A program made the translations under genes and the position numbers. Under the pieces are notes generated by a model. The model ran no database searches, was not told the origin of the DNA, and worked only from the letters and a program-made list of their open reading frames with translations. From the NCBI RefSeq assembly GCF_900155645.1, contig NZ_LT706985.1, forward strand, positions 1,660,051 through 1,724,050: 64,000 bases of DNA, written 5' to 3'. This document shows positions 44,502-61,096 of the stretch, piece by piece. The DNA is from Vaginimicrobium propionicum. Its GTDB lineage: Bacteria > Actinomycetota > Actinomycetes > Propionibacteriales > Propionibacteriaceae. The first letter of the stretch is position 1. Every line of letters starts with the position of its first letter.

Positions 44502-44764
44502 TGTTTCGGGTCATGTGTCCGGTGTTGGTTGGTTTTTTGTTTGGTAGTTTTTGTTTGGGTTGATGGTGAATTCGGTGATGATTTCGCCGGTTGTTTTGTT
44601 GATTATGGTGACGTTTGGCCCGTGTGCTAGGGCTATGACTGGTGTGCGTTTGTGGGTTCTTCCGATTCCTAGGTGGCGTAGTTTTCCTGCATAGCGGATG
44701 GTGATTGCGCCGGTGGTGTCGACTATGTCGTGTCTGACTCGCCAGTCTGTGGTTGACCGCAAGT
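44502..44764 (-). pseudogene. C-terminal remnant of an IS481-type (integrase-core) transposase
   Basis: On the minus strand an open frame of about 85 residues reads WRVRHDIVDTTGAITIRYAG, LRHLGIGRTHKRTPVIALA and GEIITEFTINPNKNYQ. This is the C-terminal tail typical of IS481-type actinobacterial transposases, lying downstream of the DDE core. The DDE residues and the start are absent: the frame is cut at the left end of the IS3 element at 44765. The stop overlaps an element-end sequence (GGACACATGA on the minus strand), as in complete elements. It is a non-functional fragment. Confidence 0.7.
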
Positions 44765-44780
44765 TGTGGACACGTCCCGC

Positions 44781-45674
44781 TTATGCTGCTTGTGGTTGTT
44801 GGTGTGTTTGTTCTTGTTTTTCCAGGTTGGTTTCGTATTCGACTGGGCGGAGGTAGCCGATTGATGAGTGTCGACGTGTGCGATTGTAGGTGACTTCGAT
44901 CCAGCGGGCGACGCCTTGTCTGGCATCGGCTCGTGTCGGCCATGTGAAACGGTTGTAGAACTCGTTTTTCAGCGTTGACCAGAAGGATTCTGCCATCGCG
45001 TTGTCGTAGCACACGCCAGTGCGGCCCATCGATTGATCGATGCTAAGTCGCTTAGTGGCTTTGTGTAACTGCTCGGAGGTGTATTGAGTGCCGCGATCAG
45101 CATGGAAGATGACGCGGCCGGGGAAATCGCCGCGTAAAGTTTTGGCCATCACCAATGCGCGTTCAACCAGGTCGGCATCTTGGTGGCTGTCCATGGCCCA
45201 TCCCAAGACGCGACGTGAACAGCCATCACGAACGACACACAGGTAGAGCCAGCCCTCGCCAGTACGTAAATAGGTGATGTCCGAGATCCACACTGTGTTG
45301 AGTTTTCCGGTATCCCACACCCGTTTGACACGGTCAAAAATCGCATGAGTCGGGATCCCAGGAATTGTCGTCACTGGGGTGAATCCGCGTGGTGAAATGC
45401 CTTCAAGGCCTTGTCGGCGCATGGATGCCGCCACTGTTTTCACATTCACCTGCGTGCCTTCAGCGTGAAAATCAGCCGTGATCCTGGGTGCCCCGTAAAC
45501 ACCATCGGAATCGGCATGAAACTCGCGGACTTTCTGGTCAAGTATGGCCTGTTTCTGCGCTCGTGGAGACGGCCCCGTTTTCCGTCGCTTGACCCAGGCG
45601 TAATAGCCTGACCGTGACACCTCTAACAGCCGAGCCATGCGTGTGATCTCGAAGTTTGCCTTCTCCTGTTCCAT
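44781..45674 (-). CDS. IS3-family transposase OrfB (DDE catalytic part)
   Basis: The 297 residues begin MEQEKANFEITRMARLLEVS, have the HTH_21 region (SGYYAWVKRR, YGAPRITADFH) and the rve core with the DDE triad: WISDITYLRTGEGW, VIFHADRGTQYTS and YDNAMAESFWSTLKNEF, then WIEVTYNRTRRHSSIGYLRP. The start codon overlaps the OrfA stop (TAATG). It is probably made mainly as an OrfAB fusion through a frameshift at the slippery site, as usual in the IS3 family. Confidence 0.95.
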   Translation of the reverse strand: MEQEKANFEITRMARLLEVSRSGYYAWVKRRKTGPSPRAQKQAILDQKVREFHADSDGVYGAPRITADFHAEGTQVNVKTVAASMRRQGLEGISPRGFTPVTTIPGIPTHAIFDRVKRVWDTGKLNTVWISDITYLRTGEGWLYLCVVRDGCSRRVLGWAMDSHQDADLVERALVMAKTLRGDFPGRVIFHADRGTQYTSEQLHKATKRLSIDQSMGRTGVCYDNAMAESFWSTLKNEFYNRFTWPTRADARQGVARWIEVTYNRTRRHSSIGYLRPVEYETNLEKQEQTHQQPQAA

Positions 45675-45994
45675 TAGCTCAAACCGTTCGCAGGTGGTTG
45701 CTTCGACGCGAAGAAGGCTGCTGCTTTTCCCAAAAACGCGTTGTCCTTTTTCAGCTCTTGAACCTCACGCCGTAACCGTTTGAGCTCAACCCGCTCATCC
45801 ACAGACAACTCGCCAGTCGGCTCGTTTCCCTGTTCCTGCCGGTACTTGCGCACCCATTTACCCAAGAGCTGTTCACCCAAACCGAGCTCTCGTGCGACAT
45901 GCGCGATCGGTCTTCCAGTGTCGACGACCAAACGAGCGGCCTCTTCACGATATTCCGGCGTGAACCTACGCCGGGTCTTTCCTACTCCTGCCAT
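45674..45994 (-). CDS. IS3-family transposase OrfA (DNA-binding part)
   Basis: The 106-residue protein has an N-terminal helix-turn-helix (RRRFTPEYREEAARLV, GLGEQLLGKWVRKYRQEQG) and a leucine-zipper-like C-terminal helix (LKRLRREVQELKKDNAFLGK). It binds the element ends and, as OrfAB after frameshift, provides the complete transposase. The end overlaps the OrfB start by one base. Confidence 0.93.
   Translation of the reverse strand: MAGVGKTRRRFTPEYREEAARLVVDTGRPIAHVARELGLGEQLLGKWVRKYRQEQGNEPTGELSVDERVELKRLRREVQELKKDNAFLGKAAAFFASKQPPANGLS
45725..45731 (-). promoter_or_regulatory. Programmed -1 frameshift slippery site in IS3 orfA
   Basis: On the minus strand the zero-frame codons are G-GGA-AAA-GCA, an X-XXY-YYZ heptamer. 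Slippage by -1 there continues as GGG AAA AGC AGC AGC CTT and stays open through the OrfB ATG, which is in that same frame. A downstream stem-loop was not tested. Confidence 0.75.
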
Positions 45995-46044
45995 AACGGC
46001 ACCCTTTCACGCGGGAACCAATCCCGCTAACTCAGGTGTCCACA

Positions 46045-46314
46045 AATGCAGGGTAACCTCACCTGCCCACCAGAACAAACCACAGACGAACGCCGACCAG
46101 CCCCGCTATAGCAATACCCAGCCTCCTCAACCCGACCACCACTATCTCGCCTACTAGAAGAAAGCTGGCCAGCCTCATCATAAAAGAACCCAGTAGTAGC
46201 TACTACACCAAGGCGAGAACAAGAAACCCCCACAACACGACCACAAAAGTCATAGCTGAGAGTGTTTTGGTCGAACTTAAAGCGTCTTATCTCATACCTC
46301 CCATCTGGCTTCGA
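46045..46314 (-). pseudogene. Truncated, inverted Rhs/YD-repeat fragment
   Basis: On the minus strand the frame after the stop at 46315-46317 reads SKPDGRYEIRRFKFDQ..., LSYDFCGRVVGVSCSRLGV, FFYDEAGQLSSSRRDSGG and YCYSGAGRRSSVVCSGG, matching the end of the YD-repeat core of the neighbouring rhs protein. It diverges after the last glycine-glycine and is cut by the IS3 end at 46044. It is a relic of a second rhs gene or of a displaced rhs tip, in opposite orientation to the intact one. Confidence 0.85.
46062..46188 (-). repeat. Inverted repeat copy 1 (127 bases, partner at 50569-50695)
   Basis: Read on the minus strand, these 127 bases match 50569-50695 of the intact rhs gene with a single mismatch by eye (encoding Gly versus Arg). 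The two copies are in opposite orientation, about 4.4 kb apart, and enclose the first three quarters of the rhs gene. Confidence 0.9.
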
Positions 46315-46446: not shown

Positions 46447-49400
46447 ATGTTAAAGCAGTCGTCACAGGCTGTTGGGGTAGGGGCGATAGTGATTAGTTTT
46501 CGGGCAGTTGATAAAGATGTTTATAGGTCGCGTCAGCCTGGTGCCAGTAGTGATCTGATTAGTAAGTGTTCTTCTCTGGTTTCTGCCCTTAATGATGTTC
46601 GTTTCAGAATTAACTCGGGTGCTGGTAGAGCTAAAGCAGAATTTCGTGGCTATTTCCGGCAGCTTTTCGACAATAACCTTAATGTTCTGAATGCAGATGC
46701 AGATAACCTAATCGACGCCCTGCAAAGACTATCTCAGGGTTTGCGTAACGCCAAGAGAGCCGCAAAGGCCGAACAAGAACGCATAGATCGAGCCTTAGAT
46801 TGGCAAAGACGCCATGATGATTGGCAGCGTCAAACCGAACAAGGCGGTATTGGCGAATTATGGTATGACCTTTGGCATAGCGAACCGGAGATACCAGACG
46901 CTGACATAATTCCGGGTGACCCACCGGTGATTTCTGCCAGTACTTGCCCCGTTGGTAGTCGTGATGTTCCACCGCCTGGCTCCACTGCAGGAACGTGTGG
47001 AGTTTCTTCGGCTTGCCCCAATGATCTTGATAACTTTGTCACGCTAATTTCTGGTTCTTCCGACACCATGGTGTCGGCCATTAATAGATTCATCCATTCA
47101 TACGAGCAGTTCGAGAGTGCCTGGACTTGGAAGTCGGGGCCAACGGCCATAAGCGGTATGGAAGGCCTTATCGGCGTACTTAGACGCTTTAATGAAAACA
47201 ACGTTAACGATGGGCGTTGGCTAGGTTTGATAGCCGGAGCTTTCCGGGCTGCTGGTGGCGGTGGATCGATTGTTTCGCTTTCGGATCAGGCCCTTAGCCT
47301 TGTGCTACAAAACGCTGGGGTGAGCGCCAGCCGTCAGGCGCTTGAAGTGCCACCCTTAGCCCTCGTCGGTATGGCTCCCACTACGGGATTTGCTGATGAT
47401 CCAATAAATACTTCGACGGGTAATTTTGTCGAACCAGAAACGGATATAGCTTTCCCTTCCTCGGCTTCAGCTTTGGCCGTAACAAGAACGTATAACTCGA
47501 TAATCGCTGTATCGCAGTTCGGGTCGAGTGAAGATGCCCCCTCTGTAGGGGTTTTCGGACTTGGCTGGTCTTCGATACTCGATCAGCGCTTGATCGTTAG
47601 TGACAACGAGATCGAATGGGTGCAAGACGATGGCCATCATGTTTTATTCAGCATGCCAGATAGCCAGAATTACGGGCCGATAAGAGCGGTAGACGAAAAC
47701 TTCTGGATTGCTAAATCTTCGCTTGCCGCGACTAGTTTCGCGGAAAGCCTTGGTAAAGGTCTGGCTGACGATGTGTGGCTGGTCTCTAACAATGAGGGCT
47801 GCCGATGGGCATTTAGCGTTGATGGTTCCTGGCTAGGTTTCTGGCGTTGCGTAGGTGATTCTGTAGGCGTTGAGAGATCTAGCAACGGCTTGGTTAAGAG
47901 CCTCATTCACTGCCGTGGCCGCCGTATCGATGTGGAATATGACGGTGCTTTGGTCTCCGCTATCCACTCAAGCGATGGCCGTAAGGTTGATTATCAATAT
48001 AGCGAAACTCAACAGCTAATCTCTGCGCAGGGCCTGGGCGGTGTTAAGCGTTATTATGTTCTTGATGACCAAGGGCTAATTGAACAGGTTGTTGGTGCTG
48101 GCGGTGTTGTTGAGTGCGTAAACACTTACGACAAAAGCGGACGTATCACCTCGCAGGTTTCCCAGTTTGGCCGCAAAAGCAGGTATGTGTATCTGCCAGG
48201 ACACGTCGCGTGTGTTAGCGATGAGGATGGCAGCCGAGCAAATACGTGGATATCTGATAATAAAGGCCGAATTGTAGGAATTATCGATGCTTTCGATCAG
48301 CGTCAATCCATGTCGTATGACAGATTCGGAAATCTTGTTACTGCCCGAGACCGTTGCGGCAAGCTAACGGTTAACTTCTATGACGATCGTGGCAGGCTTA
48401 CTCGAACCGTTCTGCCCACGAAAGCTGAAGTTAATTATTGCTGGGACGAGCAGGACCGGCTGGAACTATTGGTTGGGGCAAACGGCGCTACGGTCTCATA
48501 CCGCTATGCCAACAGCGTCGATCGTTTTCCAAGCCAGATAGTAGATCCATGTGGTGGGCTGACCACTCTTCATTGGGTCGATGGTCTGCTGCTAGAAGCC
48601 GTAGATCCAGAAGGCGTGAAAGTTTCTCTTGGCTACAACGATTTTGGTGAGCTTGTTTCGGTCACTAACGGCGTAGGTGATGTTTTTCGGTTGGTGCGTG
48701 ACGAGGCAGGCCGTGTAATTCAGGCGATAACTCCTCTAGGAAATACCACGCAGTTTATCTACGGCTCAGACGATCAACTTTCAGCACGCATCGATCCGGA
48801 CGGGGCAAGGTGGGGATACGAGCACGATAGCGATGGGCGTCTTATATCGACAACTGATCCGGCAGGCGCAACTACCCGTGTCGAATATGGTTCGCACGGT
48901 CAAGCTGAGAAAACCACAGACCCACTCGGGCGGGTTGTGGAGCGCGAGTTCGATGATTTAGGCAATGTATCTAGTCTGACACTTCCCGATGACAGCCAGT
49001 GGGCCTTTGAACATGATGGCCTATCCAGACTAAAAGCAGTAATCGACCCTGCCGGCGGAAAATGGCATTGGGGATACGACGCTGATGGGCGCCTAACCTC
49101 GGTTAGCGACCCCACAGGAATCAAAACTCAGACCGTCGGAGACAACCTCTCGGGGGCTATTCGGCAAATAACCGGCGACGGTTCCATCAACGAGACGGTT
49201 GAATTTGACGATTACGGTCGGCCAGTAAAGGCCGTAGACGCAGCTGGTGGGTCAGAGCTAATCGAATACGATGCCTGTGGCCGCGTTGTCGAAATCACAG
49301 ATGCAGCCGGCGGGCGGACAAGGCTTAAGCACGATCTTGCTGGAAGAATCGTCGAGAAGATTTCGCCAGAAAACCACAGCACGTGTTTTTCCTACGATAG

Positions 49401-52167
49401 CTGCGGAAGGCAATCTTCAATTGTTGCTCCCGACGATGGAGTAACCCGATTCTTCTATGACGCTGATTCACGTTTAATCAAACGAGTCGATGCGTGTGGC
49501 GATCAAGCAACATATGCCTACGATTCTTGTGGACGTCTTGTATCAGCAACGGTTCCGGGGCTAGGCAAGCTGGAACGCAAATACGATTCTTGCGGGCGGC
49601 TGACACATAGCCGCGATCTGGTCACAGGTGTTCGTCATTTCTCTTACGATGCTGCCGGACAGCTTGTGAAAGTCACCAATGGTCTTGGTGGAACAACTCG
49701 TTATACCTACGACGAACGAGGCAGACTATCTACTGTTACGGATCCGGCCGGAGGGCTAACAAAACGCCAATACAACGGTCTAGATAAAATTACCTCCCTT
49801 ACTGATCCCTTAGGACGCATCACTGCAGCAACCTACGATGAGGCGGGTCGGCAGCTTTCACAGACCGATCCGGACGATGTGACTTTGTCTTTCACCTACG
49901 ACTCAAATGGTGATGTACAGGCCACTTACGCTAACGGCAAACTGCTGACGAAGATTGAGCGTAATCTGGCTGATCGAACTCTTAGCGTCATCGATAACAC
50001 CGACGCAAGCGGCGATTCGGTGTGCCATAGATTGCGTTTTGACGAGCTTGGCAGATTAATCGAGAAGGTTGTTGAAAAAACTGACAGTAAAGAACTTGTT
50101 GAAACTTCGAAGTGGGCTTTCAACAGGGACGGGCAGCCAACCGATTTCGTGACATCAGACGGCCAAACAGTTGCTTATAACTATGATGTCAGCGGAAACC
50201 TCACCGAGGTTAACCACACTGAACTCGGTCAAGCCGAATTCGGCTATGATGCTTGTGGACGACTGCTCGAGAGTACCCACGACGGATTACTCCAGCAGTG
50301 GTCCTACAGCAATGGGTTCATTACCCGGTGCAAGGAAACAGCGCTTGCAGATGGTGAGGAAACCGTAACGGTTATCGAACGCAATGCTTTCGGGTTGCCG
50401 ACTAATGTCAACAGTTCAAAAGAATCTATTTCTTACTCCTACGACGATGCTTTCCAGCTAACAGGCCTTAAAACTAGCGACAGCCTGGAACGATCCTGGA
50501 GCTATGATCCCTGTGGTCGTGTTTTGGAAACTTCTCATGCTCGCCTTGGTGTTAGGGCTTCTACCAGTTTCTTTTATGATGAGGCTGGCCAGCTTTCTTC
50601 TAGTAGGCGAGATAGTGGTGGTCGGGTTGAGGAGGCTAGGTATTGCTATAGCGGGGCTGGTCGGCGTTCGTCTGTGGTTTGTTCTGGTGGGCAGGCTGTT
50701 GGTTTTGGTTGGGATGAGCGTGGTTGGTTGTCTCGTGTGGCTGTGCGGGTGCCGGGACAGGATGTTGAAGAGGTTGGTGTTCATGTTGACGGGTTAGGCC
50801 AGCTTGGGTCTGTTGGTGGTGTTGGCCTGTCATGGAATGTTGGGGTTTCTGGTCGTTTGCTTGCCGGGGTTGGTGGCCGGCCGGTGTGCCTGTTACCTGA
50901 TGGCACCTATCTAGGGCGGCCACAAAACAACGCTGGGGCGGGTTGGCGCCCAGGTGTGCTAGCGGCTGATCCGTTCGAGGTTACCGCAGACGGTATAGCC
51001 GACAGTAATGTGTCTGGTGTTTTGTCTGGGCTTGTCGGGTTGGGGGCTTGTGGCCTGGTTGTGGCTGGTATGGCGTGGTTGGGTGCCAGGGTTTATGATC
51101 CCGACACGTTTTCTTTCTTGTCGCCTGATCCGCTTGCTGATCCGCCGGCTGGGGTGTTGTGGGCTTCTAACCCATATGGTTATGCGGCTAATAATCCCCT
51201 AGTCTTTAGTGACCCTGCAGGATACAAGCCGGTAACTGATGCACAGTTGCTGGTCTATAACCAAAACCGTACCCGCTCGGGCATGGCAGTGGCTGGTGAT
51301 TTTGTTGCCGATAACTGGGAGTATGTGGCAGCTGCGGCAGCGATAGCCGGTGGTGTGGCGTTGATGGCTACCGGGGTTGGCGGGCCAGCAGGAATAGCGC
51401 TTATGGCAGCATCGGGAGCTTTGCTTAGTGGAGGTGTCTCGATCGGAGTGCAAAAATACTCCACCGGAAACGTGGACTGGACAAAAGTAGGCCAAGATAG
51501 CGCTGTGGGTGCTGTTACTGGCCTGATCGGCGGATCAGGTTTTGCTGCAGGTAAAGCCGCGTATGTGGCGAATAGTGCTGCAGGCAATACTTCGAAAGCT
51601 TTGTTGACTAGTTTTTCTATTAATGCGGCATCCGGTGCTGCTTCTTCGGAGGCAGCGTATTTGTTGAACAGTAGGATTTATGGCACACCGATTACTGCGT
51701 CTGGGATGCTGGGTGCTGCGGCAGGTGGCTCTGTAGCGAATGGGCTTGGTGGTTTTGCTGGCCCCGCAGGAAATACTCTGGCGAAGGATCTTGGGGGTGT
51801 TAGTTCTAGAGTTTATTCGACTGGATTATCGACGGGAAGTGATTTTTTGGGTAGCGCTGTTGATGACTATATTTCAGAGGGCCAGGTAGATATTAGGCGT
51901 GCAGCAACAACCTCACTTATTGGAACCGCGATTGATAACACAGGTCAGTACTTTGCTCGAAATGCTGGGTTGGCGAACAAAATAGAATTGCGGGGATTAA
52001 ATTCTATGAGTCAGTACGGGATAGCTCACCCACGTACGCTCAAAGGGATTACAAATTTCTCGGCACCAAACACCCAACGCTTGTGGTATGGCACAGCCTA
52101 TGATTCCTTAATTGGTTTTGGTGCAGACATAGCTACAGGGGTAATTGATAATGTACTCTCGAAATAA
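46447..52167 (+). CDS. Large Rhs/YD-repeat polymorphic toxin with helical N-terminus and hydrophobic C-terminal tip
   Basis: A 1906-residue protein. Order of parts: a charged helical N-terminus of about 120 residues with WXG/LXG-like character (from FRAVDKDVYRSRQPG to AKAEQERIDRALDWQ); a second helical part; a DUF6531-like entry from about 317 (DPINTSTGNFVEPETDIAFP); YD repeats at about 480-1420 (for example YDACGRVVEITDAAGGRTRL); the core end ARVYDPDTFSFLSPDPLADP and NPYGYAANNPLVFSDPAGY at about 1575-1593. The last 314 residues, after this DPxG cleavage-type motif, form the variable tip: glycine- and alanine-rich hydrophobic stretches at about 1625-1765, then a soluble end. No known catalytic motif is seen in the tip. 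An in-frame GTG at 46489 with GGGG upstream is an alternative start. Its immunity gene overlaps the stop. Confidence 0.88.
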   Translation: MLKQSSQAVGVGAIVISFRAVDKDVYRSRQPGASSDLISKCSSLVSALNDVRFRINSGAGRAKAEFRGYFRQLFDNNLNVLNADADNLIDALQRLSQGLRNAKRAAKAEQERIDRALDWQRRHDDWQRQTEQGGIGELWYDLWHSEPEIPDADIIPGDPPVISASTCPVGSRDVPPPGSTAGTCGVSSACPNDLDNFVTLISGSSDTMVSAINRFIHSYEQFESAWTWKSGPTAISGMEGLIGVLRRFNENNVNDGRWLGLIAGAFRAAGGGGSIVSLSDQALSLVLQNAGVSASRQALEVPPLALVGMAPTTGFADDPINTSTGNFVEPETDIAFPSSASALAVTRTYNSIIAVSQFGSSEDAPSVGVFGLGWSSILDQRLIVSDNEIEWVQDDGHHVLFSMPDSQNYGPIRAVDENFWIAKSSLAATSFAESLGKGLADDVWLVSNNEGCRWAFSVDGSWLGFWRCVGDSVGVERSSNGLVKSLIHCRGRRIDVEYDGALVSAIHSSDGRKVDYQYSETQQLISAQGLGGVKRYYVLDDQGLIEQVVGAGGVVECVNTYDKSGRITSQVSQFGRKSRYVYLPGHVACVSDEDGSRANTWISDNKGRIVGIIDAFDQRQSMSYDRFGNLVTARDRCGKLTVNFYDDRGRLTRTVLPTKAEVNYCWDEQDRLELLVGANGATVSYRYANSVDRFPSQIVDPCGGLTTLHWVDGLLLEAVDPEGVKVSLGYNDFGELVSVTNGVGDVFRLVRDEAGRVIQAITPLGNTTQFIYGSDDQLSARIDPDGARWGYEHDSDGRLISTTDPAGATTRVEYGSHGQAEKTTDPLGRVVEREFDDLGNVSSLTLPDDSQWAFEHDGLSRLKAVIDPAGGKWHWGYDADGRLTSVSDPTGIKTQTVGDNLSGAIRQITGDGSINETVEFDDYGRPVKAVDAAGGSELIEYDACGRVVEITDAAGGRTRLKHDLAGRIVEKISPENHSTCFSYDSCGRQSSIVAPDDGVTRFFYDADSRLIKRVDACGDQATYAYDSCGRLVSATVPGLGKLERKYDSCGRLTHSRDLVTGVRHFSYDAAGQLVKVTNGLGGTTRYTYDERGRLSTVTDPAGGLTKRQYNGLDKITSLTDPLGRITAATYDEAGRQLSQTDPDDVTLSFTYDSNGDVQATYANGKLLTKIERNLADRTLSVIDNTDASGDSVCHRLRFDELGRLIEKVVEKTDSKELVETSKWAFNRDGQPTDFVTSDGQTVAYNYDVSGNLTEVNHTELGQAEFGYDACGRLLESTHDGLLQQWSYSNGFITRCKETALADGEETVTVIERNAFGLPTNVNSSKESISYSYDDAFQLTGLKTSDSLERSWSYDPCGRVLETSHARLGVRASTSFFYDEAGQLSSSRRDSGGRVEEARYCYSGAGRRSSVVCSGGQAVGFGWDERGWLSRVAVRVPGQDVEEVGVHVDGLGQLGSVGGVGLSWNVGVSGRLLAGVGGRPVCLLPDGTYLGRPQNNAGAGWRPGVLAADPFEVTADGIADSNVSGVLSGLVGLGACGLVVAGMAWLGARVYDPDTFSFLSPDPLADPPAGVLWASNPYGYAANNPLVFSDPAGYKPVTDAQLLVYNQNRTRSGMAVAGDFVADNWEYVAAAAAIAGGVALMATGVGGPAGIALMAASGALLSGGVSIGVQKYSTGNVDWTKVGQDSAVGAVTGLIGGSGFAAGKAAYVANSAAGNTSKALLTSFSINAASGAASSEAAYLLNSRIYGTPITASGMLGAAAGGSVANGLGGFAGPAGNTLAKDLGGVSSRVYSTGLSTGSDFLGSAVDDYISEGQVDIRRAATTSLIGTAIDNTGQYFARNAGLANKIELRGLNSMSQYGIAHPRTLKGITNFSAPNTQRLWYGTAYDSLIGFGADIATGVIDNVLSK
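50569..50695 (+). repeat. Inverted repeat copy 2, within the rhs core
   Basis: Partner of 46062-46188. It encodes FFYDEAGQLSSSRRDSGGR through VVCSGGQ near residues 1375-1417. It marks a change to G/T-rich codon use that continues to about 51200. Confidence 0.9.
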
Positions 52168-53032
52168 GAAAATAGAGCCTGTAGACTTACTGAAAAACAT
52201 AATTACAACTTTTCTCTATCCTGCTTTTTTTATTATTTTTCCCTGGTTTGGAAATTTGCATAGAGCTGTAATATCTGTTGGGGGTGCCATCTTATTCACT
52301 CTTGCTGGGACAGTTATTTCTGTTTTTCTTCTCCGGACTAAGAAATGGTATTTCATTTGGATTTTACGTCTTATTCAGTTCGCAGGATTTGCCGCTATCG
52401 GCTTTTCGACTCCTCGTAAATATGACTTGGGTGTCATTTGGTTTTTCTCGATGTGGTATGGATTGTGGATTGCTGGCCATCTGCCTGATTCTTGGCTTTC
52501 TTCGAAGCCGGATCGTGAGCTTTTGCACATTAAAGAGTTTTCTTTTATTCATGGTGTGAGGTTGCGTGCTTGGGTTAAGAGTGGGAATTTGGATCGGCCT
52601 CAGGCGCGTTTTACGTACCGGGCGCTCAATAAGTTAGATGGTAAAGACCTTCAGTTCTTGGAATACACGATAAACGGTACAGCCCTTCGAGTAGGCGGGG
52701 GCACAAACGGTTACGTAATGGTGCAGTATTCCGATAATCCTAGTGACTGGTGGTCTTGGAGATCCCTGTGCCGGGTACCACCCAGCAACAAAAAATTTAA
52801 CAAAGAAACACAAGACATCACCGTTTGCGAATGGGTCTACAGCGCCCCATACGAAATCTTGTTCAACACCCAAGAAATTAAACACATAGTCAAAGCATTC
52901 GAAAACGAAGGCAACCTTGACCCATCCCCCTACCATTGGCTATCGAAGCGAGCCTCAGAAGCATTCAACCTGATACTCCCAGACGCCCTACAAACAACCA
53001 ATCCTCTCGAAGATGGCAAGAAGAACTCCTGA
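52151..53032 (+). CDS. Putative membrane immunity protein for the Rhs toxin (four-helix, 293 aa)
   Basis: Not a recognised family. Four hydrophobic segments (about 15-34, 38-61, 66-85, 95-112) precede a soluble C-terminal domain of about 180 residues with strands (VRLRAWVKSGNL, YMVMQYS-type GYVMVQYSDNP) and a helical end. The ATG at 52151 lies 17 bases inside the rhs gene, with AGGGG at 52137-52141, so translation is coupled to the toxin. This placement is typical of immunity genes. A membrane-bound immunity protein would suit a toxin acting at or in the membrane. Codon use is AT-richer than the core genome. Confidence 0.7.
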   Translation: MYSRNKKIEPVDLLKNIITTFLYPAFFIIFPWFGNLHRAVISVGGAILFTLAGTVISVFLLRTKKWYFIWILRLIQFAGFAAIGFSTPRKYDLGVIWFFSMWYGLWIAGHLPDSWLSSKPDRELLHIKEFSFIHGVRLRAWVKSGNLDRPQARFTYRALNKLDGKDLQFLEYTINGTALRVGGGTNGYVMVQYSDNPSDWWSWRSLCRVPPSNKKFNKETQDITVCEWVYSAPYEILFNTQEIKHIVKAFENEGNLDPSPYHWLSKRASEAFNLILPDALQTTNPLEDGKKNS

Positions 53033-53083
53033 AACACCACCGATAGTGCTGCCGAAGGGCAAAGCAATACCGTGGTAAAAATA

Positions 53084-53110: not shown

Positions 53111-53155
53111 CTGATTATCGAATATAGGGTTCAAATAACTTTAGTGGGTGTCGCG

Positions 53156-53569
53156 ATGGTTGATTCTTTTAGCGAGTGGCGTTACGGATCCTTGGCGGTA
53201 TTCGTTTCTTCGGAAATTCGGAACAGCAAAATTCTGTTCGGCCTATTGAAAGGTCGAAGAGAGATCGTTGTTCTTGAGGTAGGTGGAGAAAAAGCTGTTT
53301 TTTTGCGTGAAGAACTGCTTGATTTTGTCGATGGAAAAATATTTGTCGCGGAATCTAGTGATTCTGATAGTACGCATTTCTTATTGTCTCCGCGTGAGGT
53401 AGAACCTGACTCCGCCATGGGTGATTTCATTAAAAAAGAAAATAATCGATCCTCAAGTTTATGCCTGGTTAAATGTAGCAGAGGCGAAATAAATTTGGTC
53501 GTTGACTGGGATTTTGAATCCTATCAATCTTTCTTAAGCTTTCTTAAAGAGTTCTTGAAAACTGCGTGA
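53156..53569 (+). CDS. Hypothetical protein, possible second immunity or partner protein (137 aa)
   Basis: Unrecognised, soluble, 137 residues: YGSLAVFVSSEIRNSKILFG, REIVVLEVGGEKAVFLREEL, then a glutamate-rich stretch and a C-terminal helix (SYQSFLSFLKEFLKTA). The ATG at 53156 begins MVDSFSEWRYG; a GTG at 53144 is in frame. It follows the immunity gene by 124 bases in the same direction and is convergent with the kinase. Its small size, low-GC codon use and position fit an accessory immunity or chaperone gene, but nothing in the sequence proves it. Confidence 0.6.
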   Translation: MVDSFSEWRYGSLAVFVSSEIRNSKILFGLLKGRREIVVLEVGGEKAVFLREELLDFVDGKIFVAESSDSDSTHFLLSPREVEPDSAMGDFIKKENNRSSSLCLVKCSRGEINLVVDWDFESYQSFLSFLKEFLKTA

Positions 53570-53593: not shown

Positions 53594-55582
53594 TCAGGAA
53601 CCCTTCTGGGCTATGGTCAAAGAAGCTTCATCTATCTCATAATTTCCTGCTGTGGCCGCGATGCTGCAGCTAGCCGGAAAAAGGGCTGCTGCGTCATGTC
53701 CATCTGGGCTGATCGCAACTGCGCCAGAGCAGCGGTCGATCAGGCGCAAACGAGAAGCATCTTTGCCAGTTATATCGTCAAGGATGCTTGTCGGTTCACC
53801 GTTTTTTGGACTGGTGTAAATCGGGGTTAGCTTGTTCTCGCCACCAGGCCATACACCAAATATCGTTAAAGGCACCGGATCTCCCTGTTCGACCCTGGAA
53901 GGAATATCGATTCTCATCGATTGCAGCCTTTGTAGCGGGTAAGCAGTCGAGACGGATTTCGTACTAGATAGTGCTTGGTGAGTGTTTTCGCTGATTTTAG
54001 TAAGCCAAGCATCAAGTTCTTCGCGATTTTCAATCGGATGTGGGGGAGTGATTCTGGCGTGGATCTGGGTTGGATCGGTCGTTATTTCTTGCATGCTTAT
54101 AGTCCAGGCGCAGCTTGCGTTCAGAGCAGTAACAGCCTGACTATGTGGCTTTACGCTAACGCTCTCATCGTCGACTTTCCATGCTGGTTCAAGGCAAGCA
54201 TTTTCTTGGTCTGAGATGACCTCTAACACCTGGCCAGATATCGGCTTCTGATTTGTTGAATAGCTCACCGTGTAATCAATTATCGATTCTTTCGGATTCC
54301 AGGTGGCTGTTCGGTTAACGACTAGTCCTGAGGGAAGAGTCTTGTCTTCCAGCGACGCGTCTATTTCTTCATGGCTGCCAGAAGAAACTCCACGATTGAA
54401 CAAAAACACAGATAAACCTGCGACAACTAAAAGCACGGCTATTGTGCAAGCAATTAACGCGATGCGGTGGCGCGGGTGTTTCCACCAAGCGGTGCTTTCC
54501 TCATGTCTTTCTGGCTCAGCGAGGAAAGTGTGGGTATCGGAATTTTGTAACTGAGGTTTTAGAACAGTTGCCGTTGTGGAAGGCTCTATAGGCGCCAGAA
54601 CGGGTCTAGAAATCTTAAGTTTTTGATCCGACAGAGCAGCAGAAGCAGCCTCCTTTTCAGCTGACAGTTTTTCAGGTTTTAAGACGGTGGCAGCATGAAA
54701 GGCGTTAGTGGGTGACGCAGTTTGTAAGGCGGGCAGACCGGATACATTCGGTATCGCATCTTTTAGTAAAGCAATTGCCTGTGCAGAATCGTTTCTTTTG
54801 GAGGGGTCCTTTGAAAGCAATGTTGCTAAGAGAATCCAGGTTTTTTCATCAAGCCCAGGAATCCCCGGAGGAGCCATCGTAAGATGCCGATTTGCTATCA
54901 AGAATGGGTTATCTTCCTGCCCATCATCAAATGGGGAGTAGCCGGCAATCAACTGATAACAAATAATTCCGGCAGCATAAATGTCCACGCTTGGCGCTAT
55001 CGTCCCGTCTCTAATTAATTCCGGTGCCATGTAGGAAGGGGTGCCGACCATGCGGGTAGTAGACCTAACAGATTTCCCGAGGATGCTGGCAATGCCGAAG
55101 TCCGTAATCACGACTCCCGGATCGTTTTGATCCCTGTGATTAGTCAAAATGACATTTTCCGGCTTCAGATCTCGGTGAACAATTCCATTCTCGTGGGCAT
55201 ACTGGATTCCCTCTAAGAGCTGTTCTGTTATCGTGAGAGCCAATTTTGGAGGCAATGTGCCCCTAGCATCCAGATACTGTTTAAGTGTTGGTCCGGAGGC
55301 ATAATCCATCACGATGCCGAGTTTTCCGCCGTCGGCAATCAAATCTTTCGTCCGAATTATTCTTTTATGCGACAGCCCTATCAGGCTGGTTCGTTCGGTG
55401 ATGAACCTTCTAACGATGTCTTCATCTTCCCGGTATTCCTCACGCAGGAACTTAATAGCAACATCTTCTGAGGTATCTTTCTGAACGCCTTTGTAGACGA
55501 TGCCAGATGCTCCAGAACCGATTTTCTCCAAAACAGTGTAGTTAGAGCCAAAATCGATGCCTTTTAATTCTGCATTGCTCAT
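53594..55582 (-). CDS. Transmembrane Ser/Thr protein kinase with extracytoplasmic domain
   Basis: PknB-type kinase of 662 residues. The N-terminal kinase domain (about 15-275) has IGSGASGIVY, the ATP lysine VAIKFL (Lys44), HRDLKPENVIL (137-147 region), DFGIAS (161-166) and MAPE (185-188), all complete. A juxtamembrane linker (about 280-370) contains two copies of ATVLKP (299 and 339 regions), a transmembrane helix at about 373-396, and an extracytoplasmic part of about 265 residues with no PASTA repeats recognised. It overlaps the ATPase gene by 4 bases (ATGA). A regulatory role for the FHA-containing ATPase is the natural inference. Confidence 0.9.
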   Translation of the reverse strand: MSNAELKGIDFGSNYTVLEKIGSGASGIVYKGVQKDTSEDVAIKFLREEYREDEDIVRRFITERTSLIGLSHKRIIRTKDLIADGGKLGIVMDYASGPTLKQYLDARGTLPPKLALTITEQLLEGIQYAHENGIVHRDLKPENVILTNHRDQNDPGVVITDFGIASILGKSVRSTTRMVGTPSYMAPELIRDGTIAPSVDIYAAGIICYQLIAGYSPFDDGQEDNPFLIANRHLTMAPPGIPGLDEKTWILLATLLSKDPSKRNDSAQAIALLKDAIPNVSGLPALQTASPTNAFHAATVLKPEKLSAEKEAASAALSDQKLKISRPVLAPIEPSTTATVLKPQLQNSDTHTFLAEPERHEESTAWWKHPRHRIALIACTIAVLLVVAGLSVFLFNRGVSSGSHEEIDASLEDKTLPSGLVVNRTATWNPKESIIDYTVSYSTNQKPISGQVLEVISDQENACLEPAWKVDDESVSVKPHSQAVTALNASCAWTISMQEITTDPTQIHARITPPHPIENREELDAWLTKISENTHQALSSTKSVSTAYPLQRLQSMRIDIPSRVEQGDPVPLTIFGVWPGGENKLTPIYTSPKNGEPTSILDDITGKDASRLRLIDRCSGAVAISPDGHDAAALFPASCSIAATAGNYEIDEASLTIAQKGS

Positions 55583-58500
55583 AAATCAGTTCCCACCGCT
55601 TGAATTAAAATCGGGGTGCCCGCCTGGCAAGCGTAGCCACGCCCAGGAGAAAGCTCCACGGGTGCCCGCCTAGGCAAAGTAAGTGACATAAGTTCCCCGT
55701 CCCTATCTTTGTCGGGCTGCAGGAGAATACCAATCCGCGACTTGCGTAAATCATTCGTCCACTTTCCATACTGGGTGCGAAGATCATCGCTGCGACCAGC
55801 AGCTATAACAAGCAAATTCGGTTTTGATGAAGATAAGAGCGCTGCTAACTGCCCGGTCTCATCAGCAAACAAGTGTGCGTCATCCACCAGAACCAACGTC
55901 GGACAAGTAGCGACCAAGGCCTCTGCCAAAATGCTGGTGGCATCATCGAAAGAGACGAAACGGCCCAGATCGCTGCCTAACAGGGGAGAACGTTTTGAGC
56001 CTATGCCTACCACTTGGAGGATTTGTCCACTTTCCAGAGCCCTAAGCGACAAAGCTTGAGCAATTCCTGCCAGAACGCTCGACTTGCCGCTTCGGGAGGG
56101 GCCAGCAATCAACAAGTGCTCGCCGGGCCAAGCCTCTAGGCAAAAAGTCTGCAAATCATGTTCAGCAATTCCAACCGGAACCAGCCACGGCTCAGCAGCC
56201 ACAGCTGCAACGCCACTTATGGACGCCGGCGAGACGCTCTTCGGCAGCTTAGAAATAAGCGGTGGTTTGTCCGTGCAGCCCCGACGCTGCTGAATAGCTG
56301 AAATTGCCGAGTCTAGGCTACTCGGGGTAGCAACATGCGCGTGGTGCCCGCTCAAAGAGTCAACGAAGCGTCCTGGAACTTTGGCGGGAATATTGTCTTT
56401 AGGAACGTTGGCTAGCGAGTAATCGTATGGGTCAGCCAAGTCGAACAACCATTTCTGGGTCGTGACCTCCGAGACAACCGACGGAATCGCGCGAAGACCA
56501 GAGCTCGATGCAGCGAAAAATATTCCAACGGCAGGCCCCTTAAGCCAAACCTGATAAAACTTTTGCAGTAATTCGATACCTTCGTAGTCGTCGTATTCTT
56601 CGCGCAAGACCAATAGGCTGTCGATGAAAACAAATAGTTTCGGATAGCGACCGGGGGACGCCACCCGTCTATCCAACTCGGCTATGAGATAGCGCAGAGT
56701 TCTCGTTTGGAGCTCACGATTAATGGACCCGGCACCTGCGTATCCACGTGAATGGGGCAATGCATCGAGCGGTTTCAGCCCCTGATTGCCAAGATCAAGG
56801 AAAAGGAAATTTGTGTCTGCCGGATCGTGAGTAGACGCGATGCGCAAAGCGAGACTGCATAGGGCTGTTGTTGTTCCAGAACCTGGTATACCCACCAGCA
56901 ACAAGTTCCCCTCAGCCGTGTCCCAGCCCGTCAGGTACTGTCGCTGCTTATCGGGATCATCAGCAAGCGCAATCAGAATCGAATCCGTGCTAGCCGATTG
57001 TGTCGTTGTATCTGTATCAAGAGTTAGCTCTACCGAATCGCCTAGTGGTTCGGGCCATACGGGCCTGGGAGCATCGCAGCCGAGATCTTTCGCAGCCTCG
57101 CGAATTGCCTCTATTAGAAGATCCATATCGCTTAAATCTTCATCGCTTGCGGTAATAGTATGCTCGGGAGGTGCCTGCCCGAGGCTAATTTCGTCGACGT
57201 ACAAAGAAGCCGCATCATCGTTGCCGCTGATACCAGTAACTAGCGCAGTCTGGATAGCAGAAATATCGTTTTCGCCTAGCTTTATGTAGGCTCGGCCCTT
57301 TTGCTCTCGACCAATGGCTGCCGCATCAGGCACAGAAATGACGTTTGCAGAATCTTCGCGAGACTGAACGCGCAGGGCAACACGCATATTAGTGTTTGCA
57401 AGAATATCGTCATTGACCACGCCTGCGGGGCGCTGTGTAGCCAAAATCATGTGAACGCCAAGAGTGCGTCCGACAGCCCCGATCGATACAAGAGCGGAAA
57501 GAACATCGGGGAACTCTTTAGCGAGCTGAGCAAATTCATCCACGACCACCAATAAGCGTGGCATCGGTTCTTTGGGGTTTGTGGCCAGGTAAGCCTCGAG
57601 GTTATCTATTCCCTCACCTGCTTGAGCAAAACATTCCTGGCGATAACGCATCTCGGCTTCCAGCGCCTTCAACGCACGATAGGCAAGGGGAGCTTCAAGA
57701 TTGGAAAGAGTGCCGATAGTGTGTGGAAGTTTGTCGAGGCTAGCGAATGCTGCGCCGCCCTTAAAATCGACCAGAACAAAAGTTAATTCTTTTGGGCTTA
57801 CCCTTGCAGCCAGCCCAGCAATTAAAGAGCGTAGCAATTCTGATTTTCCTGAACCCGTAGTGCCGCCCACTAGCCCGTGCGGGCCGTCCTTGACCAGATC
57901 GAAGACGAACTGTCCACCCTCGCACACACCAAGCGGAACCGAGAAACTGTTATTACGTTGCCAATTATCTACAATGTCGGTTGGACTCAGGCTAGATCGA
58001 GTTATGCCAAGTAGATCAAAAAGATGCACCAGAGACGGTAAAGCCGCACCTGCCTCTCGTAGCTCCAGATCCTCGAATTTCGCCAGGCCACGCGCCCATT
58101 TTGAAGCGGTAGGCAGACTGATTTGGCAAGTATTCACGTTGCTGATGGAGTCGGATAAAGACGGGATTAGCAGGTTAGCGGTGCTGTCTGTCTTAGCCTC
58201 GATGACGGTATGGCAGCTTGCGGGAAGCATGTCTTGGCTAGTCGCGATGACTAAACCAGTAACTCGGCATGCGGCTTTATCTCTGCTATCTGCTTGATAC
58301 GCCAAGAGATCACGAACTGGAGAATCTTTGCTTTCGAGAAGCGCTATGTCATCCAAAAGAATAAATAGGTTTTGACCAGATCTGGAATCGATATCTGCAT
58401 AAAAGCTACGCGCTAATGATTCGGCCTGAGAAGTGTTTGTGGCAAATAACCAATTATTAGGGTTTGTGCCGCTCTGCATCGTATGAGGTGCCCAAGTCAA

Positions 58501-59790
58501 CCACGACCATTGCTCTGCACGGGCTTTGTCAGTTAGAACAATCACTGTTGTATCGGCAGGCCCAGATCGTGTGATGGTCTGGCATAAAAGCGATCTAGCA
58601 ATGCCTAGAGCATGAGCCCGTTCTCCCCATATGCCTACAGGGCCAGACGAGAAGTCAATGCCAACTGGAGCAGCCTTTAGCGCAGCAGAGTCAAGAACTT
58701 TAGATGTACGTTCTTGGGGTTTGCTGTTTCCCTCTAAAGGAGCTTGCCATGGCCGAGAAGCCGTGCCTAGGTTGGCCTGCCAAAAATCGCTATGGCTTAC
58801 GCGAACCTGCCAAAGCCGAGGTGCAGCTTCTTTAACGTCGGTAATGTAACTGTCTGGATAAGGAATCATCGTGGTTAAACGATCACGCTCTTTGTCCGCA
58901 GCTGATTCGATATCTTTACGCAATTTATCCAAAGCGACTAAATAGGTTTCTTCAGATTCCTTGACGTCAGTTTTAGCTCGCCTCTTTTGCTCTGCCCAGG
59001 AGCCGACAGCCATCATTGGAGAAAGCAAAGCGATGAGGGCATATCTAACTGAGTCCATCACCACGACCATCGCTACAGCCATTAGAAGGGGAGCGATAAC
59101 GGCAACCCAAGAAAACCTTGAAGATGTGCTGGGCTCCTTCTTTAAAGGTACTTCAAGCGGTCTAGGTGGTTTAGGAAGAGCAGGTCTTGGCGGCCGGTTG
59201 AATGCTACGACTCCCGAGAGCGAACGAGTCGTGTGAAAGCTAGGAAGTTTTGAGGACTCAATTTTAGATACCCGAAGAGTAACTCCACCAATGTTAATTG
59301 CGTCTCCTGCAGAAAGCTCTAATGAGGCACAATCTGATCCGATCCTGTCACCGTTAACCCAAGTTCCGTTAGACGAGTGATCGTCGACAATCCAGACTCC
59401 AGAATCATTCACGCTGAGAAGAGCATGAGACCATGAAGCTGATTCGGAATCGAGGGTAATTTCTGCCTCGTCACTTCGGCCAAGGCGTAAGTCTCCGTTG
59501 TTAGGAAGGCGGTAAGAAATGCCAGTATCCTTGCCGCCGATGACGGTTAGAGCCCATCGGCTATCGCGGTTCGGTTCAGGCCGTACATTAGAAATCAGGC
59601 TGCCTTCGAGTAATGGAATATCGGCGCATAGGGTATGTGGTGAATACTCATTTTCATCAACCCAGATTCGATTCCAGTCACGCTTGTCCAGTCTAGCGGC
59701 AGATATCAGATCATCTAGGGTAATAAAATCGCTTAAATTCGTCACAGCAAATAAGCGTTGAACCTGATTATTTTCAATAACGATCCGCAC
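55579..59790 (-). CDS. FHA-FtsK/SpoIIIE ATPase of type VII secretion (EssC/EccC-like)
   Basis: A 1403-residue membrane ATPase. Order: an N-terminal small domain (1-75); an FHA domain (about 95-175) with LRLGRSDEAE, SHALLSVNDSG and SSNGTWVNGDRIG; a proline-rich linker; two transmembrane helices (about 227-265); and three FtsK/SpoIIIE ATPase domains. Domain 1 has GGTTGSGKS (642-650) and LLVVVDEF (746-753). Domain 2 has GIPGSGTTT (967-975), in which the Walker lysine is missing. Domain 3 has GPSRSGKSS (1230-1238) and LVLVDDAHL (1299-1307). This architecture is that of EssC (FHA first, then helices and ATPases). It is the central gene of the secretion operon. Confidence 0.9.
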   Translation of the reverse strand: MRIVIENNQVQRLFAVTNLSDFITLDDLISAARLDKRDWNRIWVDENEYSPHTLCADIPLLEGSLISNVRPEPNRDSRWALTVIGGKDTGISYRLPNNGDLRLGRSDEAEITLDSESASWSHALLSVNDSGVWIVDDHSSNGTWVNGDRIGSDCASLELSAGDAINIGGVTLRVSKIESSKLPSFHTTRSLSGVVAFNRPPRPALPKPPRPLEVPLKKEPSTSSRFSWVAVIAPLLMAVAMVVVMDSVRYALIALLSPMMAVGSWAEQKRRAKTDVKESEETYLVALDKLRKDIESAADKERDRLTTMIPYPDSYITDVKEAAPRLWQVRVSHSDFWQANLGTASRPWQAPLEGNSKPQERTSKVLDSAALKAAPVGIDFSSGPVGIWGERAHALGIARSLLCQTITRSGPADTTVIVLTDKARAEQWSWLTWAPHTMQSGTNPNNWLFATNTSQAESLARSFYADIDSRSGQNLFILLDDIALLESKDSPVRDLLAYQADSRDKAACRVTGLVIATSQDMLPASCHTVIEAKTDSTANLLIPSLSDSISNVNTCQISLPTASKWARGLAKFEDLELREAGAALPSLVHLFDLLGITRSSLSPTDIVDNWQRNNSFSVPLGVCEGGQFVFDLVKDGPHGLVGGTTGSGKSELLRSLIAGLAARVSPKELTFVLVDFKGGAAFASLDKLPHTIGTLSNLEAPLAYRALKALEAEMRYRQECFAQAGEGIDNLEAYLATNPKEPMPRLLVVVDEFAQLAKEFPDVLSALVSIGAVGRTLGVHMILATQRPAGVVNDDILANTNMRVALRVQSREDSANVISVPDAAAIGREQKGRAYIKLGENDISAIQTALVTGISGNDDAASLYVDEISLGQAPPEHTITASDEDLSDMDLLIEAIREAAKDLGCDAPRPVWPEPLGDSVELTLDTDTTTQSASTDSILIALADDPDKQRQYLTGWDTAEGNLLLVGIPGSGTTTALCSLALRIASTHDPADTNFLFLDLGNQGLKPLDALPHSRGYAGAGSINRELQTRTLRYLIAELDRRVASPGRYPKLFVFIDSLLVLREEYDDYEGIELLQKFYQVWLKGPAVGIFFAASSSGLRAIPSVVSEVTTQKWLFDLADPYDYSLANVPKDNIPAKVPGRFVDSLSGHHAHVATPSSLDSAISAIQQRRGCTDKPPLISKLPKSVSPASISGVAAVAAEPWLVPVGIAEHDLQTFCLEAWPGEHLLIAGPSRSGKSSVLAGIAQALSLRALESGQILQVVGIGSKRSPLLGSDLGRFVSFDDATSILAEALVATCPTLVLVDDAHLFADETGQLAALLSSSKPNLLVIAAGRSDDLRTQYGKWTNDLRKSRIGILLQPDKDRDGELMSLTLPRRAPVELSPGRGYACQAGTPILIQAVGTDL

Positions 59791-59836: not shown

Positions 59837-61096
59837 TTAACGTTTTTCTGCGCTGACCCAGGTCGGATTCCCATCTAACGAAACGATTTGGGCGAGCTCT
59901 ACATTCTGATAGACCCGATTAGAGAAATCACGCGATACTCCGTCGACGCTTTCAGCGTCTTTCTGGACCAGTTTTGAAATCTCATTTTGCACGTGCTGAG
60001 GATCGTAAGATTTAGCTCTCGCGATTGATCTGGCCACAGCCATGAACGCTTCATAGCTTGAGGTGTCACTAAGAGTGGCACGTTCAGAGAAAATGGCATC
60101 ATCTCGAAGCGCTTTTTCTGTGTTGCCTTGCTGCATCAAAGAACGAGCCTCGGCGAATCCTAAAGATTCGGTGTCAGACATCGCTGTTTTTGCAGGAGCA
60201 AGAGTGAAGATGCTTAATCCACTTAGGCTGGAACTCGCCAGTTCTTCCTGGAATTGTGAATTCGTGCCATAACGACCAGCTATAAACTTCGCGTTGATCT
60301 GGTGAGACTGCAAATCACTAATGGTTTGGGCCATTTGTGCAGGCGGCTGATCGATAAAGATGCAGCCAGTTCGGGAGTCTTTAATAATTTTCTTTAGCTC
60401 CTGTGCCCGCTGTTCCTCATCAGTTGAGTTAACTATGATTAGCGAATCCAGGCCAGCGGGAGCCTTGTCTAAAACTATGAATGGCGAGCAAGAAAGCGCT
60501 TTTGCTGAATCCTCGAGCTTTTTAGCTAGCGAATCGGGATCGGGGAACCCGTACCATGTGGCATCTCCGTAATCGGATAGTGCGCTTTCGTAAGGAAAAA
60601 CTATAGGCAGGCCTGCGGCAGATGCCTCTTTAGCAAGACGATTCGTGTGGTTCCCGCTAGTCAGAGCTACTACCGCAGATACGTTTTGTTCCTTCAACTG
60701 GTTGATCGCATCTGCTGCGCCTTCTGAAGTTCCCTGATCAGAAACCACTACGGTATCGATACGCGTACCGTTTTGGGCTAGGCGCCATTTAGCAATGGTT
60801 ATTCCTTCTCCGTTGCCATCCCAGCCAGCGCCTTGAGTTGGGTCTTCAGTATAGGAGACGACAACACCTATCTTGGCTCCGCTAGGGATTCCGTCCAGTG
60901 CTTGTTCAACTTGGGGCCCAGGATAGGGCGCGTGATTACTCGAACCATTCGGGAACACCATCTTCCAGATCCCAATAATTGCCAATATGAGCGTGACAAA
61001 TATGATTGCGACTACAAAAATTGCTTTTTTGCTCGCCTTGCCGGTGTGGGCATAGCCTTCGGCGTCGGCTTTAAGCTCTGTTGATGAATCATTCAT
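59837..61096 (-). CDS. Membrane-anchored periplasmic-binding-fold (type 1) protein
   Basis: A 419-residue protein with a short cytoplasmic N-terminus, a signal anchor (about 25-47, FVVAIIFVTLILAIIGIWKM) and an extracytoplasmic region that resembles the leucine/isoleucine/valine or sugar-receptor family: GAKIGVVVSYTEDPTQG, AADAINQLKEQNVSAVVALT, GLPIVFPYES and IFIDQPPAQMAQTI. There is no ABC permease nearby, so it may sense or gate rather than import. It is 46 bases upstream of the ATPase gene and 5 bases downstream of the coiled-coil gene stop. Confidence 0.75.
   Translation of the reverse strand: MNDSSTELKADAEGYAHTGKASKKAIFVVAIIFVTLILAIIGIWKMVFPNGSSNHAPYPGPQVEQALDGIPSGAKIGVVVSYTEDPTQGAGWDGNGEGITIAKWRLAQNGTRIDTVVVSDQGTSEGAADAINQLKEQNVSAVVALTSGNHTNRLAKEASAAGLPIVFPYESALSDYGDATWYGFPDPDSLAKKLEDSAKALSCSPFIVLDKAPAGLDSLIIVNSTDEEQRAQELKKIIKDSRTGCIFIDQPPAQMAQTISDLQSHQINAKFIAGRYGTNSQFQEELASSSLSGLSIFTLAPAKTAMSDTESLGFAEARSLMQQGNTEKALRDDAIFSERATLSDTSSYEAFMAVARSIARAKSYDPQHVQNEISKLVQKDAESVDGVSRDFSNRVYQNVELAQIVSLDGNPTWVSAEKR

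Follow-up and report, generated by a model that had tools for sequence, protein, structure and literature searches.

Genetic organization of the rhs locus

The window, that is the whole stretch of 64,000 nucleotides that was analysed, belongs to the 2.01-Mb, single-contig genome of Vaginimicrobium propionicum, a member of the Propionibacteriaceae, the family that also includes the genus Propionimicrobium. Inspection of the open reading frames along with searches of the Pfam and NCBIfam databases identified a gene for a Rhs/YD-repeat polymorphic toxin of 1906 amino acids at positions 46447-52167 of the forward strand. The RHS_repeat model of Pfam matched the deduced protein in 15 stretches (E 5e-107), and the start of the Rhs shell is marked by DUF6531 (PF20148; E 1.6e-17; amino acids 318-401; 47398-47649, forward strand). 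The NCBIfam model Rhs_assc_core was detected at amino acids 1541-1592 with 39.1 bits (cut-off 32.5). The core terminus reads SPDP...DPAG, in which DPAG (amino acids 1589-1592; 51211-51222, forward strand) represents a putative self-cleavage site of the Rhs aspartyl-protease type, a motif described previously (PMC10684867), and is followed by a tip of 314 amino acids. PAAR, VgrG, LXG or named toxin domains were not found in the protein by Pfam and NCBIfam. The many YD repeats and the core-end domain with its DPxG motif are those of a Rhs/YD polymorphic toxin, and the architecture given in the original prediction, namely a 1906-residue YD-repeat protein without PAAR or VgrG, with a DPxG end and a 314-residue tip, was confirmed by the domain searches and the sequence itself.

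The 3' end of the rhs gene is overlapped by the putative immunity gene (52151-53032, forward strand), which starts with an ATG codon at position 52151, is preceded by GGGG nine bases upstream and shares 17 nucleotides with rhs up to the rhs stop. The deduced protein of 293 amino acids is composed of a membrane half and a soluble C-terminal domain. About four hydrophobic helices are confined to amino acids ~10-110, and amino acids ~120-293 are predicted by the structural model to form a soluble, strand-rich domain, so that the earlier description as a four-helix membrane protein holds for the membrane half but not for the entire protein. The model is weak in the membrane part (pLDDT about 63-80), where it places helices at amino acids 10-63, 66-85 and 91-110, the first being long enough for two passes, and just two segments exceeded the hydropathy threshold. 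A Foldseek search with the model returned no match with an E-value below 0.001, and Pfam Imm1 (PF14430) did not match the protein. The immunity protein encoded beside a sister tip in genome G187 scored above the Pfam Imm1 cut-off (22.9 versus 22.4 bits); the 293-amino-acid protein is collinear with it, and homology to an Imm1 fusion was rejected as the similarity is weak only (pairwise E 0.025, hhalign probability 2%). Immunity proteins consisting of three hydrophobic helices fused to an Imm1 or Imm1-like domain are encoded at L068:1674-2495 (reverse strand) and in L067.

Four genes in the vicinity are located on the reverse strand. The first of them (53594-55582) encodes a membrane Ser/Thr kinase with the motif HRDLKPEN that resembles TsdD according to domain match, hydropathy and motif. 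It is adjoined by a gene (55579-59790) for a secretion ATPase with FHA and FtsK/SpoIIIE domains of the EssC/EccC/TsdC kind, as deduced from Pfam, NCBIfam and motifs; its match to TIGR03928 reached an E-value of 4e-151 and remained under the equivalog cut-off. The motifs of both proteins are intact. Two further proteins are possible parts of the machine: a single-helix protein (59837-61096; domain search and hydropathy), on which weak periplasmic-binding-like matches fall within this type VII-like operon, and a protein of 910 amino acids with an N-terminal hydrophobic segment and coiled-coil regions (61102-63834), for which an EsaA/TsdI-like role is unproven. A WXG100 gene of 93 codons is located just beyond the edge of the window (G000:C1:1724085). 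It was recognized by TIGR03930 (E 2.3e-5) and PF06013 (E 2.9e-4), both under the cut-off, and was missed by a whole-genome scan with PF06013 at E 0.001, which consequently is of limited sensitivity.

Fragments of a second gene with about 30% identity to the Rhs N-terminus come after this WXG100 gene, and the two together form a second, decayed Rhs unit beyond the machine (L041:1085-2368, corresponding to G000:C1:1724085-1725368). Additionally, the secretion locus is bracketed by two 99.9% identical IS3-type copies of the same orientation (44748-46061 and L041:2223-3536), the latter interrupting the second Rhs-like gene.

The tip domain and its neighbouring genes

The tip can be divided into two parts. 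The Gly/Ala-rich pre-toxin region (amino acids 1619-1793; 51301-51825, forward strand) has counterparts with roughly 35-60% identity in many Rhs proteins of the family, where it continues into a HINT domain or into other tips. Both tip segments that exceeded the hydropathy threshold are located in this region. The original prediction had taken the glycine/alanine-rich hydrophobic stretches as evidence for a pore. This argument was not borne out and had to be rejected, since the region is common to Rhs proteins ending in HINT and in other tips and hence is not diagnostic of the poison.

The second part is the tip-specific C-terminal domain of about 113 amino acids (1794-1906; 51826-52164, forward strand), with a signature around S-x-F-G-x-R-T ... 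N-[TA]-x-x-[LI]-W-x-G. Further members of this family were detected in Propionimicrobium lymphophilum (two tips), in genomes G134, G141, G187 and G105, in G191 (two tips) and in G058/G117. No additional member outside the order was found among 346 genomes of the class at E 1e-10, which is a thin sample, and none on plasmids. The ~113-amino-acid domain had no match among the Pfam, NCBIfam, PHROGs, PADLOC and PDB profiles. A catalytic domain was not recognized with Pfam and NCBIfam, nor did any helix in these 113 amino acids exceed the hydropathy threshold. Homology to pore-forming or ionophore tips, the group of Tse5 and the CDI ionophores, was not apparent via families or the PDB. The AlphaFold model of the tip was unusable (pLDDT 31), and therefore no fold backs a pore.

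The tip is followed by a gene for a multi-helix membrane protein in nine of ten members of the ~113-amino-acid family, as opposed to two of 23 other tips (Fisher p 1.3e-5; the classes were assigned by hand, and the value is optimistic, as the genomes are related, with G058 and G117 being near twins). The nine comprise the V. propionicum tip, P. lymphophilum tip B, G134, G141, G187, the L067 tip of G191, G105, G058 and G117; the exception is the L066 tip of G191. In G134, G141 and P. lymphophilum tip B, the next gene encodes a purely membrane protein devoid of a soluble domain. Most of the membrane partners show little or no mutual similarity, from which it can be argued that the membrane is what these tips have in common. 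A hydrophobic membrane immunity partner, as present in nine of ten family members, is the feature expected beside a pore-forming or ionophore tip, and ionophore toxins of other systems come with immunity proteins that form hairpins in the membrane (PMC11630599). The pattern of neighbours supports the view that the tip would be a membrane-acting toxin.

Two other tips in a sister family (L114 and L125 of G594) are followed by genes of 292-300 codons whose products have four helices; they possibly constitute a second group of membrane-acting tips.

A tip/immunity cassette common to two genera

The region 51327-53079 (forward strand) is 99.0% identical to positions 9997-11749 of contig L042 of P. 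lymphophilum DSM 4903, with 17 substitutions and no indel, whereas the clpB DNA of the two genomes is only 73% identical. The common block extends from the Ala-rich codons with which the pre-toxin region starts to a point 47 nucleotides past the stop codon of the immunity gene. Tip and immunity gene are thus shown to form one mobile cassette that is common to two genera owing to recent transfer. This result supports the toxin-immunity pair that had been postulated, as the same tip is accompanied by the same immunity gene in another genus. It likewise reveals the feature of Rhs polymorphic toxins that a variable tip and the adjacent immunity gene are exchanged without the core, as neither a RHS_repeat match nor a Rhs core was found in P. 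lymphophilum. From its borders, the cassette is inferred to have been swapped onto conserved rhs cores.

The codon changes between the two copies comprise ten synonymous and five non-synonymous ones. With 75% non-synonymous sites assumed, the neutral expectation is about 11 of 15 non-synonymous changes (binomial p 0.0008). The excess of synonymous changes suggests that selection has acted on both genes, tip and immunity. The occurrence of the almost unchanged tip and immunity gene in another genus, one that seems devoid of such a machine, suggests a weapon or shield that can be passed on.

The P. lymphophilum copy of the cassette faces a second tip in a head-to-head arrangement; this second tip bears an internal stop codon and is followed by an intact membrane gene of 238 codons. 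A third tip remnant nearby (L042:7459-8400) with the glycine-zipper-like sequence GGLIGGLVGGFVGG and one in-frame stop likewise precedes an intact membrane gene, in this case of 155 codons. EccC matches in this genome did not exceed the level of the housekeeping FtsK, and no WXG100 protein was detected at E 0.001 by the search that also missed the WXG100 gene of V. propionicum. A tentative interpretation, to which we give less than even odds, is that P. lymphophilum keeps an archive of cassettes from relatives armed with type VII systems, which would serve as a cross-genus island of acquired immunity against membrane-acting type VII Rhs toxins. Such an archive would fit the data because broken tips stand beside intact membrane genes. 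Acquired immunity in this species is nevertheless a guess, drawn from three pairs in one strain.

Orphan immunity arrays of the Vibrio cholerae type VI secretion system (PMC5361080) provide a parallel, as in them, too, immunity genes matching the module of another strain were retained next to toxins that had been displaced. The present case differs in being cross-genus and in that the array-bearing P. lymphophilum shows no such machine and no Rhs core.

Predicted delivery, mode of action and relation to known systems

The N-terminal region of the Rhs protein contains a putative helical export domain (46540-46806, forward strand) that can be aligned with some 30 related loci and that carries the motif F-x-G at amino acids 66-68, which is invariant across the nine N-terminal homologues aligned. 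The domain appears to be distantly WXG100-like, as deduced from the alignment of homologues, from the location of homologues behind a WXG100 gene and from a match to Pfam WXG100 that is weak (E 0.0056; 17.4 bits, under the cut-off of 27.3; one of nine homologues). A profile comparison of the Rhs N-terminus with the WXG100 partner family by hhalign was negative. With respect to the WXG/LXG-type helical N-terminus that had been proposed, the N-terminus may be weakly WXG100-like, and no match to LXG was obtained.

The genomic neighbourhood of the homologues provided the link to a type VII-like machine. Of 32 related Rhs loci, 12 have a WXG100 gene with at least 60% identity to that of V. propionicum in the 1.5 kb upstream, and an EccC/EssC gene is present about 0.1-13 kb from the Rhs gene in nine relatives (distances read off the listed coordinates). 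Both a WXG100 partner gene and EssC/EccC in the vicinity are attributes of type VII effectors, and the proposed link of the toxin to the adjacent secretion machine was supported in this respect. The rhs copy at 46447-52167 itself has no WXG100 gene immediately upstream, the one in V. propionicum being separated from it by the machine operon. Type VII delivery of the 1906-amino-acid Rhs protein is the best inference from these arrangements.

Combining the data, we favour, at a probability of roughly 0.6, a type VII Rhs toxin directed against other bacteria, with a YD shell, a membrane-damaging tip, an overlapping membrane immunity gene and an exchangeable cassette. The helical N-terminus would pair with the WXG100 protein and be exported by the adjacent FHA-ATPase/kinase machine, and the YD shell would hold the tip until cleavage at DPAG. 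The Gly/Ala-rich part of the tip might then help to reach or cross the target membrane, the last ~113 amino acids would most likely damage the cytoplasmic membrane, and the overlapping membrane gene would protect the producer.

The membrane-acting tip of the original prediction is supported by the membrane neighbours and not by the Gly/Ala stretches, and the soluble immunity domain and the Imm1 match in G187 leave room for an enzyme. According to this alternative, which we consider rather unlikely, the tip would be an enzyme active within the target cell or on its inner side, and the immunity protein would be an Imm1-like, soluble inhibitor whose helices anchor it in the membrane. Such a role is consistent with the Imm1 score of the G187 partner, with the collinearity of the 293-amino-acid protein and with the positive-inside rule, by which an N-terminal RNKK and an RTKK loop, assessed by eye, would place the soluble half in the cytoplasm; it is opposed by the missing Imm1 match of the V. 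propionicum protein itself, by the purely membrane partners in G134, G141 and P. lymphophilum tip B and by the lack of a recognized catalytic domain in the tip. Decay of the locus, in which a Rhs protein without WXG100 partner, hemmed in by insertion sequences, would have lost its export, is improbable. In favour of decay, the region just upstream contains an element of the IS3 type and a 196-bp piece of rhs in inverted orientation, a near-identical IS3 interrupts the second Rhs-like gene beside the WXG100 gene, and the extreme N-terminus (amino acids 1-27) diverges from the relatives; however, the frame of 1906 codons and the ATPase and kinase motifs are intact, and synonymous changes outnumber non-synonymous ones in the comparison with P. 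lymphophilum. A surface-anchored or Sec-exported Rhs protein of the WapA kind is highly improbable. The Sec pathway can be used by Gram-positive Rhs proteins (PMC10327511), but the protein lacks an N-terminal hydrophobic segment and shares its N-terminal domain with Rhs proteins encoded behind WXG100 genes.

Overall, the locus belongs to a known kind, the Rhs toxin-immunity loci linked to a T7SS, and has a new and uncharacterized tip family. It resembles LrhA/LrhI of Listeria monocytogenes essC8 (PMC10327511), in which DUF6531 and 16 repeats are encoded beside an EssC gene, a WXG100 gene and a membrane immunity protein, and orphan copies of the LrhI gene were reported in other strains (PMC10327511). 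The L. monocytogenes system belongs to another phylum and another machine, and the likeness is one of description. Moreover, a single N-terminal helix and a globular, presumably extracellular part make up LrhI, whereas the 293-amino-acid protein has several helices and a soluble part that is probably inside. The combination of WXG100 protein, FHA-ATPase and membrane Ser/Thr kinase with a conserved active site, together with a linked Rhs gene, resembles the T7SSd of Actinomycetota (Garrett et al. 2024, PMC11217815), described in a paper whose main text does not name the Propionibacteriaceae. The T7SSd differs by TsdH and a 1654-amino-acid, Ig-like TsdI, neither of which was recognized at the locus when judged against the published descriptions; the locus has the periplasmic-binding-like protein of 419 amino acids and the 910-amino-acid coiled-coil protein. 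With Tse5 of Pseudomonas aeruginosa (PMC10684867) the protein shares the Rhs shell, the DPxG-type cleavage and, if our reading is right, a membrane-acting tip. Tse5 is delivered by a T6SS and its pores were shown experimentally (PMC10684867), whereas the present tip is known from its sequence and has no match in the libraries searched.

Documented type VII Rhs toxins come from a few Bacillota, whereas those of Actinomycetota have only been noted, and the locus adds to them an uncharacterized family of tips with membrane proteins as immunity partners. Together, the armed genus and the seemingly unarmed holder of the same cassette represent a natural pair for a direct test of cross-genus protection against a type VII toxin.

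Two small features border the toxin and immunity genes. Just upstream of rhs, a 196-bp segment (46062-46257) cut by the IS3-type element repeats positions 50500-50695 of the rhs core in inverted orientation (89%). It may have been left by an rhs 3' end that was displaced and had stood head to head, comparable to the arrangement in P. lymphophilum. Directly after the cassette, a gene of 141 codons (53144-53569) encodes a protein without predicted membrane helices and without relatives in 198 genomes of the family; it might have served as immunity gene for an earlier tip that was displaced.
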